A stretch of 36,392 nucleotides of DNA from Pseudomonadota bacterium. GTDB taxonomy: Bacteria; Pseudomonadota; Alphaproteobacteria; Sphingomonadales; SMXR01. Under the pieces are notes generated by a model that worked only from the letters and a program-made list of their open reading frames with translations, was not told the origin of the DNA and did not search any database. The first letter of the stretch is position 1; every line of letters starts with the position of its first letter. Below are positions 819-5,937 of the stretch, in pieces. The position numbers were made by a program, and so were the translations under genes. The stretch is from positions 1-36,392 of the forward strand of contig JADFJJ010000015.1 of the NCBI GenBank assembly GCA_022566215.1, given 5' to 3'.

Positions 819-1928
819 ATGCGTAACTTTTCCGGAAACCGGGACCGATCTGGCGCCCTGGTCCGCAAACAAGAACGGCGCGGGCGGGCGGCGCTCAGCA
901 ACGCCTCCGGGCGGTTCGAAGTCCACGTCCGTGAGAACTTTGACGACGGCTGGAACCACAGTGATGAAATTAAACCCATAAAAACACAGGTGTTCCGCGA
1001 GGCATCAAAGCGGATTATTACCACCAACAAGTCGCCGGATATTCCCTTTGACCGTTCGATCAACCCCTACCGGGGGTGCGAGCACGGCTGCATTTACTGT
1101 TTCGCCCGGCCTTCCCACGCCTATATCGGCCTTTCCTCCGGGCTTGATTTCGAGACCAAGCTGTTCGCCAAGCCAGATGCCGCCCAGCTGCTGGAGCGGG
1201 AGTTACGGAACCCCAACTACCGCTGCCAGGTGCTGGCGATCGGCACCAACACCGACCCTTACCAGCCGATCGAGCGGAAATGGCGCATCATGCGGCAAAT
1301 CCTGGAGGTGCTGGAGGCGTTTTCCCACCCGGTCTCGATCGTCACCAAGGGGCACCTGGTGACCCGCGATATCGATATCCTCAGCAGGATGGCGGAGCGG
1401 AACCTGGCCCATGTCGCGCTGTCGGTGACCACCCTCGACCACAAGCTGGCCAGAAACATGGAACCCAGAGCCTCAACCCCGAAAAGAAGACTGGCGGCGA
1501 TCCGCGAGCTGACCGAAGCCGGCATCCCGGCCAGCGTGATGGTGGCGCCGATCATCCCGGCCTTGAACGATCATGAGATTGAAGCGATCCTGGAAGCGGC
1601 CTCCGCCAATGGCGCCAGGGGGGCGGCGTTTATTTTCATGCGCCTGCCGTACGAGATCAAGGATTTGTTCCGTGAATGGCTGGAGGAAAATTATCCCGGC
1701 CGGGCGGCACGGGTTTTGCACCATATTCGCGCCCTTAAAGGGGGCCGTTACAATAACCCTGATTTCCACGAGCGCTTCAAGGACCACGGAGAATACGCCC
1801 ATTTGATCCGCCAGCGCTTCGATAAGGCCTGCCGGCGTCTGAGGCTGAATGAGGATATTCCGGCGCTTGACAATACGCTCTTTTATCCCCCGGCGCTGAA
1901 GGGCGAACAGTTCGATTTGTTTAGCTAG
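819..1928 (+). CDS. PA0069-family radical SAM protein (SplB-like)
   Basis: The 369-residue protein carries the radical SAM cluster motif CEHGCIYC (Cys87, Cys91, Cys94), which holds a 4Fe-4S cluster and S-adenosylmethionine. The N-terminal RGRAALSN...RFE segment, the NPYRGCEHGC context, and AIGTNTDPYQPIE and VSIVTKGHLVTRD further on match the PA0069 subfamily of the spore-photoproduct-lyase-like COG1533 group. The substrate of that subfamily is not established. A frame extension to a TTG at 789 exists, but the ATG at 819 fits the family N terminus better; neither has a good ribosome site. Its TAG stop lies inside a CTAG that also supplies the stop of the convergent ACP gene. Family assignment is firm and the reaction unknown. 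Confidence 0.88.
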   Translation: MRNFSGNRDRSGALVRKQERRGRAALSNASGRFEVHVRENFDDGWNHSDEIKPIKTQVFREASKRIITTNKSPDIPFDRSINPYRGCEHGCIYCFARPSHAYIGLSSGLDFETKLFAKPDAAQLLERELRNPNYRCQVLAIGTNTDPYQPIERKWRIMRQILEVLEAFSHPVSIVTKGHLVTRDIDILSRMAERNLAHVALSVTTLDHKLARNMEPRASTPKRRLAAIRELTEAGIPASVMVAPIIPALNDHEIEAILEAASANGARGAAFIFMRLPYEIKDLFREWLEENYPGRAARVLHHIRALKGGRYNNPDFHERFKDHGEYAHLIRQRFDKACRRLRLNEDIPALDNTLFYPPALKGEQFDLFS

Positions 1929-2152
1929 GTAAGATATTTCGCAACGTCGCTCAGGCAAGCAATATCGACCACCGCTTCAGGAGTGAGTTCCCTGCCGATC
2001 TTTTCTTCCATCGCCATGATCAGGCGCATGTGGGAGAGGCTGTCCCAGCCGTCAAAATTCGTGACCGAGGCATCGTCGGGAATTTCATGCGGCTGGCGCT
2101 GGCTGGCCCCGGCCAGAAGGGCTTTTGCGTTTATCAAATCCTGAGCGCTCAT
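1925..2152 (-). CDS. Acyl carrier protein (discrete, 75 aa)
   Basis: This small acidic protein has the phosphopantetheine attachment motif W36-D37-S38-L39 followed by HMRLIMAMEE, the usual start of ACP helix II. Ser38 should carry 4'-phosphopantetheine. Length (75 aa) and layout match free-standing ACP/PCP proteins. It is not the fatty-acid-synthesis AcpP, whose motif is DSLDTVELVM. The start at 2152 was chosen because ATG there overlaps the TGA of the upstream GNAT gene as ATGA; an in-frame ATG 30 bases further upstream lies inside that gene. It is the last gene of the six-gene GNAT/ligase operon and presumably holds the acyl group activated by the ligase at 3287-4756. The ACP fold is well supported; the cargo is unknown. 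Confidence 0.88.
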   Translation of the reverse strand: MSAQDLINAKALLAGASQRQPHEIPDDASVTNFDGWDSLSHMRLIMAMEEKIGRELTPEAVVDIACLSDVAKYLT

Positions 2153-2724
2153 AATTTGCCCGCCTTTCGCATTTCCAGCCATTCTTCTTTCAACAGGCCG
2201 AAATGGTAGGCGTCCACCCGGCCGCCGAAGGGGGAGATCAGATGTTCCCTGACCACTGCTTCAGGGGTAAAACCCATCGCCTTGTAGTTATAAATGGAGG
2301 GCAGGTTGCGGCCGTGAATTTCACCTTCCACCTTTTCCATCCCGAGCGTGTTGAAAATAAACGGCAGCAAGCGCGCGCGCACCTCCAAGGTGACACCCTT
2401 GCCCCACCACGCCTTGTCGCCAATACAGATATTGGTCAGGGCGACTTTTTTAGTGTAATTCGGCCAGATGGCAAAAAAGCCGATTATCTTCTTGGTCTGT
2501 TTTTCAAAAATCCCGAGATGAAATTTTTTGCGGTTGTCAAAAGTTTCGATGTGCTGGGCCGCCCTTTGCTGGTCCCATCCCCTTGGTTTAAAGTTGAAAC
2601 CCTTCTGGATTTCCGCATCGTTCCACCAGCTGGTATAGATCGGGCCAGCGTCTTTCGCCGAAAGCGAGCGGATAATAAAACGCTCGCTTTGCGTTATCAG
2701 TGGTTTTCCAGGCTCCCAATTCAT
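2149..2724 (-). CDS. GNAT-family N-acyltransferase, paralogue D
   Basis: The 191-aa protein is of the RimJ/RimL-like GNAT type (COG1670) and the fourth paralogue in transcription order. It begins MNWEPGKPL and carries the shared WWNDAEIQKGF motif near residue 35 and CIGDKAWWGKG near residue 104. The latter corresponds to the CoA pyrophosphate-binding loop and is the most canonical of the four copies. The start at 2724 gives an ATGA overlap with the preceding GNAT gene and aligns with the paralogues; a frame extension to 2745 does not. Its stop overlaps the ACP start in the same way, so these genes are probably translationally coupled. Transfer of an acyl group to an amine is inferred from the fold; substrate unknown. 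Confidence 0.85.
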   Translation of the reverse strand: MNWEPGKPLITQSERFIIRSLSAKDAGPIYTSWWNDAEIQKGFNFKPRGWDQQRAAQHIETFDNRKKFHLGIFEKQTKKIIGFFAIWPNYTKKVALTNICIGDKAWWGKGVTLEVRARLLPFIFNTLGMEKVEGEIHGRNLPSIYNYKAMGFTPEAVVREHLISPFGGRVDAYHFGLLKEEWLEMRKAGKL

Positions 2725-3290
2725 GACCCGTACCTTTCCTGCCATTCCCTTTTCAGCAGCCCATATAAGTGAATATCGATGCGTTTTCCGCCGGGGCCGA
2801 TGCCCTGTTTGCGCAAGGTGCCCTCCTTTTTGAAGCCCAGTTTATCGTAAATGGCCATCGAGGCCCGGTTGTCGCCCCTGATCTCGCCCTCAATTTTCTC
2901 GACCCCCATTTCCTCAAACCGGATTTTCATGGCAGCTATGGCGATCTCAGTGGCTGTGCCCTTGCTCCAGAGGGATTTGTCGCCGATACAGAGGTTTGCC
3001 TTGGAAACTTTCTGCCGGTGATCAACAGTTATGGCGTAAAAGCCGATCAGTTTGCCGGTGCTTTTCAGGAAAATACCGAGGTGAAAGTTGTTTTTGTTAT
3101 TGAATTTGGCGACGTGCTGCCGGGCGCTTTCCAGGGTAAACCCCCGCGGCGGGTTGCCAAAGCCTTGCTGGATTTCAGGATCGTTCCACCAGCTGACATA
3201 ATCTTCATTTACATCATCGGCGGTCAGCGAGCGGGCGATAAACCGTTCGGTTTCAATTTTTAAAGGCTGTCCTGGTCGCCAGTCGCTCAT
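2721..3290 (-). CDS. GNAT-family N-acyltransferase, paralogue C
   Basis: The 189-aa GNAT domain protein begins MSDWRPGQPLKIETERF. It shares with its three neighbours the W-W-N-D-x-E-I-Q-x-G-F motif near residue 35 and a CIGDK segment before the CoA loop. In this copy the loop reads LWSKG, with Ser in place of the usual Gly. The frame extends about 230 bases upstream inside the ligase gene, but the ATG at 3290 overlaps the ligase TGA as ATGA and matches the paralogue start, so 3290 is preferred. It sits between the ligase and paralogue D in the same operon. It is probably an N-acyltransferase acting on the product of this cluster; RimJ/RimL-type protein acetylation is the alternative. Confidence 0.85.
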   Translation of the reverse strand: MSDWRPGQPLKIETERFIARSLTADDVNEDYVSWWNDPEIQQGFGNPPRGFTLESARQHVAKFNNKNNFHLGIFLKSTGKLIGFYAITVDHRQKVSKANLCIGDKSLWSKGTATEIAIAAMKIRFEEMGVEKIEGEIRGDNRASMAIYDKLGFKKEGTLRKQGIGPGGKRIDIHLYGLLKREWQERYGS

Positions 3291-4756
3291 CGGTTTTTCC
3301 CTTCCAGGCAATACTCCCGCACCACCTGGCGGTTGACCTTGCCGCGGCCGGTTTTCGGAATTTCGGAAACCGGATACCATTTTTCCGGCACACAATCCAG
3401 CCGTATCCGTATCTGACACCATGCCCTGAGATCCGCTGGCGACAGTTGGCTTCCCTCCTTTAGCGTATAGGCGATTGCCACCGTCTCGCCGCTGACCGCG
3501 TCCGGCACTCCGAAGGCGCAAGCCTCCACCACCTCTTCATGCCCTTCCAGCAGGGCATCGATCTCTTCGGGCAGAATTTTCATGCCGGCCCGGTTGATCT
3601 CGGTCTTGATGCGTCCCAGCAGCCGGATCACACCCGCCTTATCAATCGAGCCGATATCGCCGGTGTGATACCAGCCGCCGCGGATCGCCTGATCGGTCAG
3701 GTCCGGGCGCTGGTAGTACCCTTTCATCAGCGATGGGGGCTTGAGCAGCAGCTCCCCCTCCCCGGCTGCCTGGCGTTTGCCGCCGCTGGTCATAACCGCT
3801 GCCTGACCGCCCCACATCTTGCCCACCAGGCCGGTCTCAATCCGGTAATCCGCGCCGGATGCCCCGGCGGCCCAGTTGGCGGTCTCGGTAATCCCGTACA
3901 TATTGACCACGTTTTTTATACCGGCCCAGTTCATGATCGCCTGCCAGTGGCCTTTTGACAGCGGCGCGGAACCGACACTGACCTGTTTCAGGGAACCACC
4001 CCCGGGCGGGGAAGAGGCTTTCAGAACCACCTTCCAGAAAGAGGGGACGGAACTCAGGAATGTTATGGCATGGTCATCAATAATCTTTCCCATCCGGGCC
4101 GCGCCCCCGATCCCCTGGTCCTGAAAAAGAAACAGGCGCCGGCCACAAAGCAGTGGCGTCAGGCAGTTGCCGATCAGCCCGTGGCCGAAATGGGTCGGCA
4201 GGACGCACAGGGTTTTCGCCAGAATAACTTTCGAAAGATGCCGCCAGTTGTTTTCCAGCCGGGCCTGGAGCGAACCGTAGCTATGAACAACCCCCTTGGG
4301 ATCGCCGGTGGTGCCGGAGGTGAACAAAATAAGCGCCGGATCATTGGGTGAAACTCCTGCCACATCACAACAAGCATCCCCTTTCGCATTCCGGTCCAGG
4401 TCAAACTGCGGGCAGCGGAATGACAGCTCTTTCGCGCCCTGGCCCCGGCCCAGAAGAATTGCTTTGGGCTGGGTAAAGGCGGAGACCGTCTCAAGCTCGT
4501 TCAGGGTCAGCTTCGAATTCAGGCAGGCGGCAATCCCGCCGATCCCCCAAACCGCAAAAAGATCGGCAAAAAACATCGCCGTCCCGCCGTGGGTAATCAG
4601 GAATAAGTCGCCCTTGCCAAACTTGTTTTCCTTCAGGTAAGAAATGCGCCTCAGGGTTTGAGCCCTAACCTCCCCGGAGGTCCAGTGAACACCTGACGCC
4701 AGGTCGGTGATCCCGCCGGATTTGATTTCCAGGAATAAGGTATTCAGGGATGACAT
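3287..4756 (-). CDS. AMP-forming acyl ligase (ANL superfamily)
   Basis: This 489-residue adenylate-forming enzyme has all core motifs in order. They are the ATP loop FTSGTTGDPKGV (residues 145-156), YGITET (287-292), WYHTGD (362-367), the hinge GRIKTEINRAG (381-391) and KTGRGKVNR near the C terminus, with the catalytic Lys at 473. Such enzymes activate a carboxylic acid as an acyl-AMP and pass it to CoA or a carrier-protein thiol. An ACP in the same operon makes ACP loading likely. The start at 4756 follows a clear GGGGGAGGA ribosome site; the frame extension to 4804 lies inside the upstream gene. Length fits stand-alone ligases of the DltA/acyl-CoA synthetase size class. The substrate cannot be read from sequence. 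Confidence 0.88.
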   Translation of the reverse strand: MSSLNTLFLEIKSGGITDLASGVHWTSGEVRAQTLRRISYLKENKFGKGDLFLITHGGTAMFFADLFAVWGIGGIAACLNSKLTLNELETVSAFTQPKAILLGRGQGAKELSFRCPQFDLDRNAKGDACCDVAGVSPNDPALILFTSGTTGDPKGVVHSYGSLQARLENNWRHLSKVILAKTLCVLPTHFGHGLIGNCLTPLLCGRRLFLFQDQGIGGAARMGKIIDDHAITFLSSVPSFWKVVLKASSPPGGGSLKQVSVGSAPLSKGHWQAIMNWAGIKNVVNMYGITETANWAAGASGADYRIETGLVGKMWGGQAAVMTSGGKRQAAGEGELLLKPPSLMKGYYQRPDLTDQAIRGGWYHTGDIGSIDKAGVIRLLGRIKTEINRAGMKILPEEIDALLEGHEEVVEACAFGVPDAVSGETVAIAYTLKEGSQLSPADLRAWCQIRIRLDCVPEKWYPVSEIPKTGRGKVNRQVVREYCLEGKNR

Positions 4757-4770
4757 TCCGGATCCTCCCC

Positions 4771-5349
4771 CTAAGACCCTTGGTCCGCCAGGGAAGCCAG
4801 CCACTCTTCCTTCAGCATGCCGTAAATGTGAAGGTCAGCCCGGCCGCCGCCGATGCCCTCCACCCGTTGGCGCAGCTGCCCTTCTTTGGTGAACCCGAAG
4901 TGCTTTAAGATGCCAATTGAGGCCGGGTTAGCTCCCCTGATCCGGACTTCAATCTTGTTGGCGCCAAGAACCTTGAAAATAAAATCAAAGAAGGGCGTTA
5001 CCACCTCGGTTGCGGTGTGCTTGCCCCAATAGTTCTTGTCGCCGATACAAATATTGGGAACGGCGATGCCAATATCGGATTCCACAAAAAGGGTATAAAA
5101 GCCGATCAATTCGTCATTGCTTTTTAAGTAAATACCAAAATGAAACTTGTCCCGGTTGTTGAACTGCCTGACGTGGTCGGTGGCCATTTTCAGGTCCCAG
5201 TTTCTGGGGGGAAAGCCGAAACCTTTCTGGATTTCAGCATCGTTCCACCAGCCAAGATAGGTTTCATTGACATCATCAGGGGTAAACGTGCGCACGTAAA
5301 AACGCTCGGTTTCAATTCTTAACGGTTCGCCTGGTTGCCAAGGATTCAT
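4771..5349 (-). CDS. GNAT-family N-acyltransferase, paralogue B
   Basis: This 192-aa GNAT protein, second in the operon, begins MNPWQPGEPLRIETERF and carries WWNDAEIQKGF near residue 35. Its CoA loop region reads CIGDKNYWGKH, with His where the family normally has Gly. Its first about 40 codons are nearly the same as those of paralogue A at both protein and DNA level, whereas the remainder is much more diverged. The gap to the upstream gene is 15 bp, and the ligase ATG follows 14 bp after the stop. Function is inferred as N-acyl transfer; acceptor and donor are unknown. Confidence 0.85.
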   Translation of the reverse strand: MNPWQPGEPLRIETERFYVRTFTPDDVNETYLGWWNDAEIQKGFGFPPRNWDLKMATDHVRQFNNRDKFHFGIYLKSNDELIGFYTLFVESDIGIAVPNICIGDKNYWGKHTATEVVTPFFDFIFKVLGANKIEVRIRGANPASIGILKHFGFTKEGQLRQRVEGIGGGRADLHIYGMLKEEWLASLADQGS

Positions 5350-5364
5350 TTTTTAGCCATTTTG

Positions 5365-5937
5365 TTATTTGTCTTTTTGTCTGCGTCGCCATTCTTCGCA
5401 AGTTAGCGTGTAATATGAGATTTCTACCGGCTGGCCATCTTGCTGGAGGTCTTTGTGAGGTTTAGTTATAACCAGTTTAAAGCCAAATTTCTTGTAAAGT
5501 TTTTTGATCACGGGATTGTCTCCTACAATCTTTCCGACGATCAGGTAATGTCCCATGGCATTAAACCGGTAGTTCAACATATGCGGACCAACTTCTGAAA
5601 TTACTCCCTTGTTTTGCCATTCCTTTTCTCCAATACAGACACTCGATTCAGAGGAATTATCATCCGGGTTGGTTATAAAAGAATAATATCCAATCAGATG
5701 ATCGTTTTCCTTGACAAAAATTCCCAGATGAAACTGGCTGAAGTTATCAAAAGACTTCACATGTTTGAGCGCATCATCCAGTGTCCAGTTACAAGGTTGA
5801 TGACCAAACCCCCTCTGGATATCGGCATCGTTCCACCAGCCTAGATAAGTCTCATTAACATCCTCTGGTGTAAACGTGCGTAGATAAAAACGCTCGGTTT
5901 CAATTCTTAAAGGTTCGCCTAGTTGCCAGTTGGTCAT
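5365..5937 (-). CDS. GNAT-family N-acyltransferase, paralogue A (first gene of operon)
   Basis: The 190-aa GNAT-like protein opens the operon. The start at 5937 follows an AGGAG ribosome site 9 bases upstream; a longer frame to 5985 lacks one. The N terminus MTNWQLGEPLRIETERF and WWNDADIQRGF match the paralogues, but the C-terminal half is the most divergent of the four, with loop CIGEKEWQNKG (Asn for Gly) and no GGGR/DxHxYG-type tail. The gene is visibly more AT-rich than its neighbours outside the conserved 5' end. It could be a diverged or partly converted copy, perhaps with another acceptor. Assignment to the GNAT fold is sound; activity is less certain than for the other three. Confidence 0.8.
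   Translation of the reverse strand: MTNWQLGEPLRIETERFYLRTFTPEDVNETYLGWWNDADIQRGFGHQPCNWTLDDALKHVKSFDNFSQFHLGIFVKENDHLIGYYSFITNPDDNSSESSVCIGEKEWQNKGVISEVGPHMLNYRFNAMGHYLIVGKIVGDNPVIKKLYKKFGFKLVITKPHKDLQQDGQPVEISYYTLTCEEWRRRQKDK

Follow-up and report, generated by a model that had tools for sequence, protein, structure and literature searches.

What is the role of an operon that places four GNAT genes beside a ligase gene and a gene for a small acyl carrier protein (ACP)? The operon in question lies in a stretch of 36,392 nucleotides (the window) from a Pseudomonadota bacterium (Alphaproteobacteria, Sphingomonadales, SMXR01). The window is taken from contig C11 (JADFJJ010000015.1) of a 1.89-Mb assembly (GCA_022566215.1) that is 93% complete. 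Judged from sequence and analogy, the operon is probably an ACP-dependent N-acylation cassette, in which the ligase would charge the holo-ACP with a specific acid for transfer to amines by the GNATs. Gene content, a conserved neighbourhood, a GNAT-ACP fusion, intact ligase and ACP motifs and gene duplication are all evident in the sequences.

The genes are read from position 5937 to 1925 on the minus strand. First come GNAT1 (5365-5937, 190 amino acids, Pfam Acetyltransf_3 at 4.4e-14) and GNAT2 (4771-5349, 192 amino acids, Acetyltransf_3 at 1.1e-18), followed by an AMP-forming acid ligase of the ANL family, the proposed ACP loader (3287-4756, 489 amino acids, AMP-binding at 1.2e-48 and AMP-binding_C at 1.1e-12). 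GNAT3 (2721-3290, 189 amino acids, Acetyltransf_3 at 1.9e-19), GNAT4 (2149-2724, 191 amino acids, Acetyltransf_3 within the range of the other three, also placed by tree and AlphaFold2 model) and a dedicated ACP (1925-2152, 75 amino acids, PP-binding at 2.3e-6) complete the operon. Gaps of 15 bp (GNAT1/GNAT2) and 14 bp (GNAT2/ligase) separate the first three genes, and the remaining junctions (ligase/GNAT3, GNAT3/GNAT4 and GNAT4/ACP) are ATGA overlaps of 4 bp. A first-pass annotation, made from the sequence alone, had described this six-gene operon with the same span, order, strand, gaps and overlaps, and Pfam agrees with its naming of all six products. The motifs it singled out are also there: WWND and I-Q-x-G-F, invariant across the four GNATs, the full ligase set and the WDSL of the ACP.

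Could the arrangement be due to chance or to assembly? Both are ruled out, since another species of the genus has the same arrangement, on separate contigs (L099/L100), and the core recurs across the class. A scan for promoters and terminators gave sites no more numerous than in shuffled sequences. A role in defence was considered and dropped, as the sole match in a PADLOC search was negligible (4e-4, over 23 residues of GNAT1).

How general is the association of the three gene types? It was followed in 385 genomes of the Alphaproteobacteria, the window's own genome being left out of the counts. A GNAT profile search gave 12 close relatives (E about 1e-30 or better) in 11 genomes; over the search as a whole, weaker matches included, neighbours were read in all but the six weakest genomes. 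Ten of the 12 lie directly next to both an ACP and a ligase of this subfamily; the other two are one with an ACP only (genome G523) and one alone (G401, contig C93). An independent ligase profile search gave 13 subfamily members. Ten have the GNAT and ACP adjoining and are the same ten cassettes, two more have an adjoining ACP (G664 and G719), and the ligase of G523 stands alone, the GNAT-ACP pair of that genome being on another contig. When 399 genomes from across the phylum were sampled, one further full cassette came up (G817), and every match fell in the same class. The common gene order is ligase, GNAT, ACP; one locus (L128) has ligase, ACP, GNAT. More distant ligase relatives (about 25-36% identity, e.g. 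in Vibrio), met in a contig scan, were placed outside the family because no cassette GNAT or ACP was found near them, one marginal GNAT match (3e-4) aside.

Full cassettes are found in at least nine families (in the numbering of the sample used) and in fewer than 4% of genomes. This patchy spread, over many families and few genomes, suggests horizontal transfer. A plasmid search with GNAT3 gave nothing at 60% identity, the matches listed lying near 30%. Ligase, ACP and GNAT, the unit at the heart of the first-pass interpretation, recur together, and a wide existence of these GNATs as single RimJ/RimL enzymes, which it had named as the contrary case, is not what the neighbourhoods show. The linkage to ligase and ACP also led to rejection of RimI/RimJ/RimL-type protein acetyltransferases as an identity for the GNATs. 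No Rim model was passed; for RimI, GNAT3 alone gives a match (25 of 86 bits, under the cut-off).

A second copy in the same genome brings GNAT and ACP still closer. Contig C70 (locus L067) carries a ligase 53% identical to that of the window, a GNAT fragment and a GNAT-ACP fusion, a 281-amino-acid protein (L067 1534-2379) in which the GNAT runs in frame into the ACP. The fusion gene lies entirely within ungapped sequence. Beside it, another GNAT is interrupted where the scaffold has a gap (10 N, 2673-2682). Its part ahead of the gap matches the beginning of the fused GNAT almost exactly at the DNA level, so that this may be a recent duplication or a mis-scaffolded repeat. Further along this contig, two TPR proteins of about 610 amino acids each are encoded in tandem (L067 7171-10952), the first with a putative 2OG-Fe(II) oxygenase domain at its end; a TonB-dependent receptor gene follows the pair on the opposite strand.

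Are the ligase and the ACP competent for such a role? The ligase has FTSGTTGDPKGV, YGITET, YHTGD, GRIKTEINRAGMK and the catalytic Lys of PKTGRGKVNR. These motifs (P-loop, YGxTE, TGD, hinge and C-terminal Lys) are kept in aligned relatives and are those of the ANL superfamily. The ligase is 48-54% identical to 11 relatives, 10 from ligase-GNAT-ACP cassettes and one from the second copy in its own genome. It falls far under the cut-off of every NCBIfam acyl-CoA ligase model listed (best PRK06187, 226 of 476 bits). The solved structures closest to it are oxalate-CoA ligases, followed by others that include the amino-acid adenylation protein LgrA; likeness to the oxalate enzymes is at superfamily distance, and no firm substrate is assigned from it. 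The ACP has its phosphopantetheine site at Ser38, in GWDSLSHMR, a form of the WDS(L/I)-x-H that is common to cassette ACPs, and a holo-ACP synthase gene is found in the genome. It scores well under the cut-offs of housekeeping AcpP models and is, by model score, distinct from the housekeeping ACP. Between the two species of the genus it shows 0 non-synonymous and 6 synonymous changes, i.e. no amino-acid difference.

We infer that the ACP is loaded, that the GNATs draw on acyl-ACP and that an amide forms, in the following steps. Using ATP, the ligase would adenylate one particular carboxylic acid. It would then hand the acyl group over to the thiol of the phosphopantetheine arm that Ser38 carries in the operon's ACP, the ACP having been primed by the holo-ACP synthase of the genome. 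A GNAT would dock the acyl-S-ACP in place of an acyl-CoA and move the acyl group to an amine. Precedent comes from the Sbz system, where SbzL loads 2-sulfamoylacetate onto SbzG/SbzK for transfer to an amine by the GNAT SbzI, as proven in vitro; in the related SbzB/SbzC reaction the ACP could not be replaced by CoA (PMC6331615). The AlphaFold2 model of GNAT4 (predicted local distance difference test score, pLDDT, of 90.7) has a RimL/SpeG-like fold. From this fold, the holo-ACP synthase, the non-housekeeping nature of the ACP and the Sbz precedent, acyl-ACP-dependent N-acylation is therefore favoured. The GNAT-ACP fusion lends it indirect support. Also in its favour are the recurrent linkage of the three genes, the lack of amino-acid change in the ACP between the two species and a correlation, over 13 cassettes, among the distances of the three proteins (r 0.59-0.65, Mantel p <= 0.0004).

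Several points weigh on the other side. The GNAT fold is closest to ordinary CoA-using RimL/SpeG enzymes, and structural comparison shows no feature that forces the use of an ACP. Neighbourhood and fusion speak for a functional link and are compatible with acyl flow either way; acylation of an aminoacyl-ACP by the GNATs, with acetyl-CoA as donor, is an alternative. The correlation of distances reflects species relationship as well. The motif changes of GNAT1 and GNAT2 point to a set of four in which some members are not classical enzymes.

How did four GNATs arise? The paralogues are about 35-51% identical in pairs, and the five GNATs of the genome form one clade (support 100/98). In it GNAT4, the neighbour of the ACP, pairs with the fused GNAT of the second copy as its sister (96/82), and GNAT1, the most divergent paralogue, has the longest branch of the genus clade. 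No cassette outside the genus was seen with more than one GNAT. The simplest history would be a genus-level expansion of one ancestral GNAT: a single ligase-GNAT-ACP cassette would have been duplicated, with the extra GNATs arising afterwards in the window copy. One activated acid might then serve several acceptors, or several positions on one. GNAT4 would be closest to the ancestral state, and GNAT1 and GNAT2 the most altered. Because GNAT1 lacks the WGK motif (WQNKGV replaces WGKxV, where the other paralogues have W-(G/S)-K) and GNAT2 has Leu for the Tyr of the Y-K motif conserved in most relatives, a division of labour or a partial loss of activity is possible. The ratio of non-synonymous to synonymous change (dN/dS) between the two species is about 0.15 for GNAT2 and GNAT4 and 0.31 for the ligase; values of 0.55-0.67 for GNAT3 and 0.82 for GNAT1 come from change counts too small for conclusions.

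What, then, is the acceptor? One candidate, to be entertained with some reserve, is that the same cassette yields a small N-acyl product or modifies a peptide, with a free amine, an amino acid, a polyamine or a short peptide as acceptor. No sugar genes surround the window operon, and the fold of GNAT4 is near both SpeG and a lasso-peptide acetyltransferase, although likeness to SpeG and RimL is generic to the fold. In three genomes of family f48 the ligase is immediately preceded, within a single operon of four genes, by a gene for a protein of 382-394 amino acids (L132 11368-12516, L133 6470-7633 and L135 6874-8058). These genes are ATP-grasp-like, but the matches are weak (best 8e-8) and present in two of the three. 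In G817 the cassette shares one strand (L148 7813-13169) with PqqD, a lasso-type B2 transglutaminase, an HprK-like gene and, after ligase-GNAT-ACP, an NTP_transf_5 gene; no lasso cyclase or precursor was seen near it, however, and the window operon itself has neither an ATP-grasp nor a lasso-type partner. Elsewhere (G618), the cassette ligase gene shares its first 4 bp with a monooxygenase af470-like gene (L126 3896-4402).

A second candidate, possible but doubtful, keeps the same cassette and has it N-acylate UDP-amino-deoxysugars or nonulosonic-acid precursors for a surface glycan or flagellin, in the manner of PseH with a non-acetyl acid. Support for it comes from some relatives. The G678 cassette lies within a locus of NeuB, CMP-sugar synthetase, PseG-GNAT-fusion and PIG-L genes. 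The sister ligases of G664 and G719 are in glycan loci, the first with an ACP fused to a PEP-mutase/methylisocitrate-lyase-like gene (L147 8860-11885), the second with an ACP followed by such a gene (L169 8490-10999). More distant GNAT relatives (L094, L098 and L139-L141) occupy loci that resemble, by sequence, those of pseudaminic or legionaminic acid. An amino-deoxysugar is the probable acceptor in some relatives. Against this as a general role, NeuB is present in 4 of the 12 cassette genomes outside the genus and absent from the other 8, and several cassettes have no sugar genes nearby. The G678 locus also encodes, directly upstream of the cassette ligase, a 541-amino-acid protein (L136 11422-13047) with no Pfam or NCBIfam match.

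The window's organism shows no sign of an amino-deoxysugar acceptor. Neither flagellin nor a NeuB-type synthase (PseI) was found in its 93% complete genome; the lone NeuB match was inspected and is a DAHP synthase. The DegT amino-sugar aminotransferase family gives weak matches only. With the PseH model TIGR03585, GNAT3 matches weakly (26 of 93 bits, under the cut-off), and GNAT1, GNAT2 and GNAT4 have no listed match. Flagellin, one acceptor put forward in the first-pass annotation, is thus unsupported for this organism, as is flagellin glycosylation. The annotation's amino sugars of a surface glycan find support in some relatives and not in this genome; the part of its interpretation that is supported is the functional unit of ligase, ACP and GNAT. 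Because the contexts differ so (ATP-grasp-like genes, a PqqD/lasso-B2 operon, a nonulosonic-acid locus), the cassette looks like a module that is used with different acceptors.

Might the acyl group flow the other way? The ligase would then load an amino acid and the GNATs would N-acetylate the aminoacyl-ACP from acetyl-CoA, the product being released or used elsewhere. LgrA is among the nearest structures of the ligase, if after oxalate-CoA ligases, and the GNAT fold is a standard CoA-binding one. This scheme is nonetheless improbable: none of the cassettes seen had a recognisable thioesterase or other gene for release, several GNATs per ACP are left unexplained, and the Sbz precedent runs in the opposite direction. 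Least likely of all is a plain acyl-CoA synthetase that merely shares an operon with RimJ/RimL-type acetyltransferases; the Pfam families are common and the closest curated models are acyl-CoA ligases, but the low scores against those models, an ACP linked to 12 of 13 ligase relatives and the GNAT-ACP fusion disfavour it.

Taking ACP-dependent N-acylation as the preferred reading, a broader proposal can be made, if only speculatively. The ligase-GNAT-ACP cassette may be an undescribed mobile unit of the Alphaproteobacteria, a general-purpose ACP-fed N-acylation unit that plugs into various pathways (nonulosonic acids, peptide-like products, ATP-grasp operons). In this genus it may have become self-standing by multiplication of its GNATs, with one acid decorating several amines of one product. 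Should this be so, a widely scattered compact cassette with a natural GNAT-ACP fusion would offer a clean model for carrier-protein recognition by a GNAT, and its gene content a searchable signature for unrecognised N-acylation chemistry. Annotations of 'GNAT family N-acetyltransferase' beside an ACP and a ligase would then probably not denote acetyl-CoA enzymes.

How does the cassette compare with known systems? DltA/DltC, the model invoked in the first-pass annotation, resembles it in that an ANL enzyme loads a dedicated small carrier protein. In Dlt D-alanylation, transfer to teichoic acid is by membrane proteins, without a GNAT, and no DltB (MBOAT) or DltD gene directly flanks the operon. 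The model suits the loading step; for the rest, Sbz is the closer precedent. FeeM is alike as a GNAT-type N-acyl amino acid synthase that takes its acyl group from a carrier protein. Its donor is a long-chain fatty acyl group, and it is not among the solved-structure sequence matches of the window GNATs. PseH is a RimL-like GNAT that acylates a nucleotide amino sugar, but its donor is acetyl-CoA (PMC4964394), and the pseudaminic acid pathway was not seen in the window's genome. In an Aeromonas island, the pseudaminic-acid locus with PseH also contains an ACP and an AMP-dependent synthetase; there, however, the latter two are linked to reductase, LuxE and LuxC genes and no GNAT is listed with them (PMC7874193). 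Acyl-ACP-dependent GNATs are known from few characterised systems. Open-access searches, with most subscription papers outside their coverage, gave no description of the cassette. Sbz, of the altemicidin/SB-203208 pathway in Streptomyces, likewise encodes together a free-standing adenylate-forming enzyme, a small ACP and a GNAT, a likeness in type of part, and FeeM is cited with it as a further carrier-protein-fed GNAT (PMC6331615). Sbz differs in being part of a 20-kb natural-product cluster that has two ligases and two ACPs and whose acid and acceptor are known (PMC6331615), whereas the present cassette is compact and patchily distributed, with a GNAT-ACP fusion in one copy and four GNATs in another. 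The class of mechanism is thus already known; its compact, recurrent, GNAT-fused and GNAT-expanded form appears to be new.

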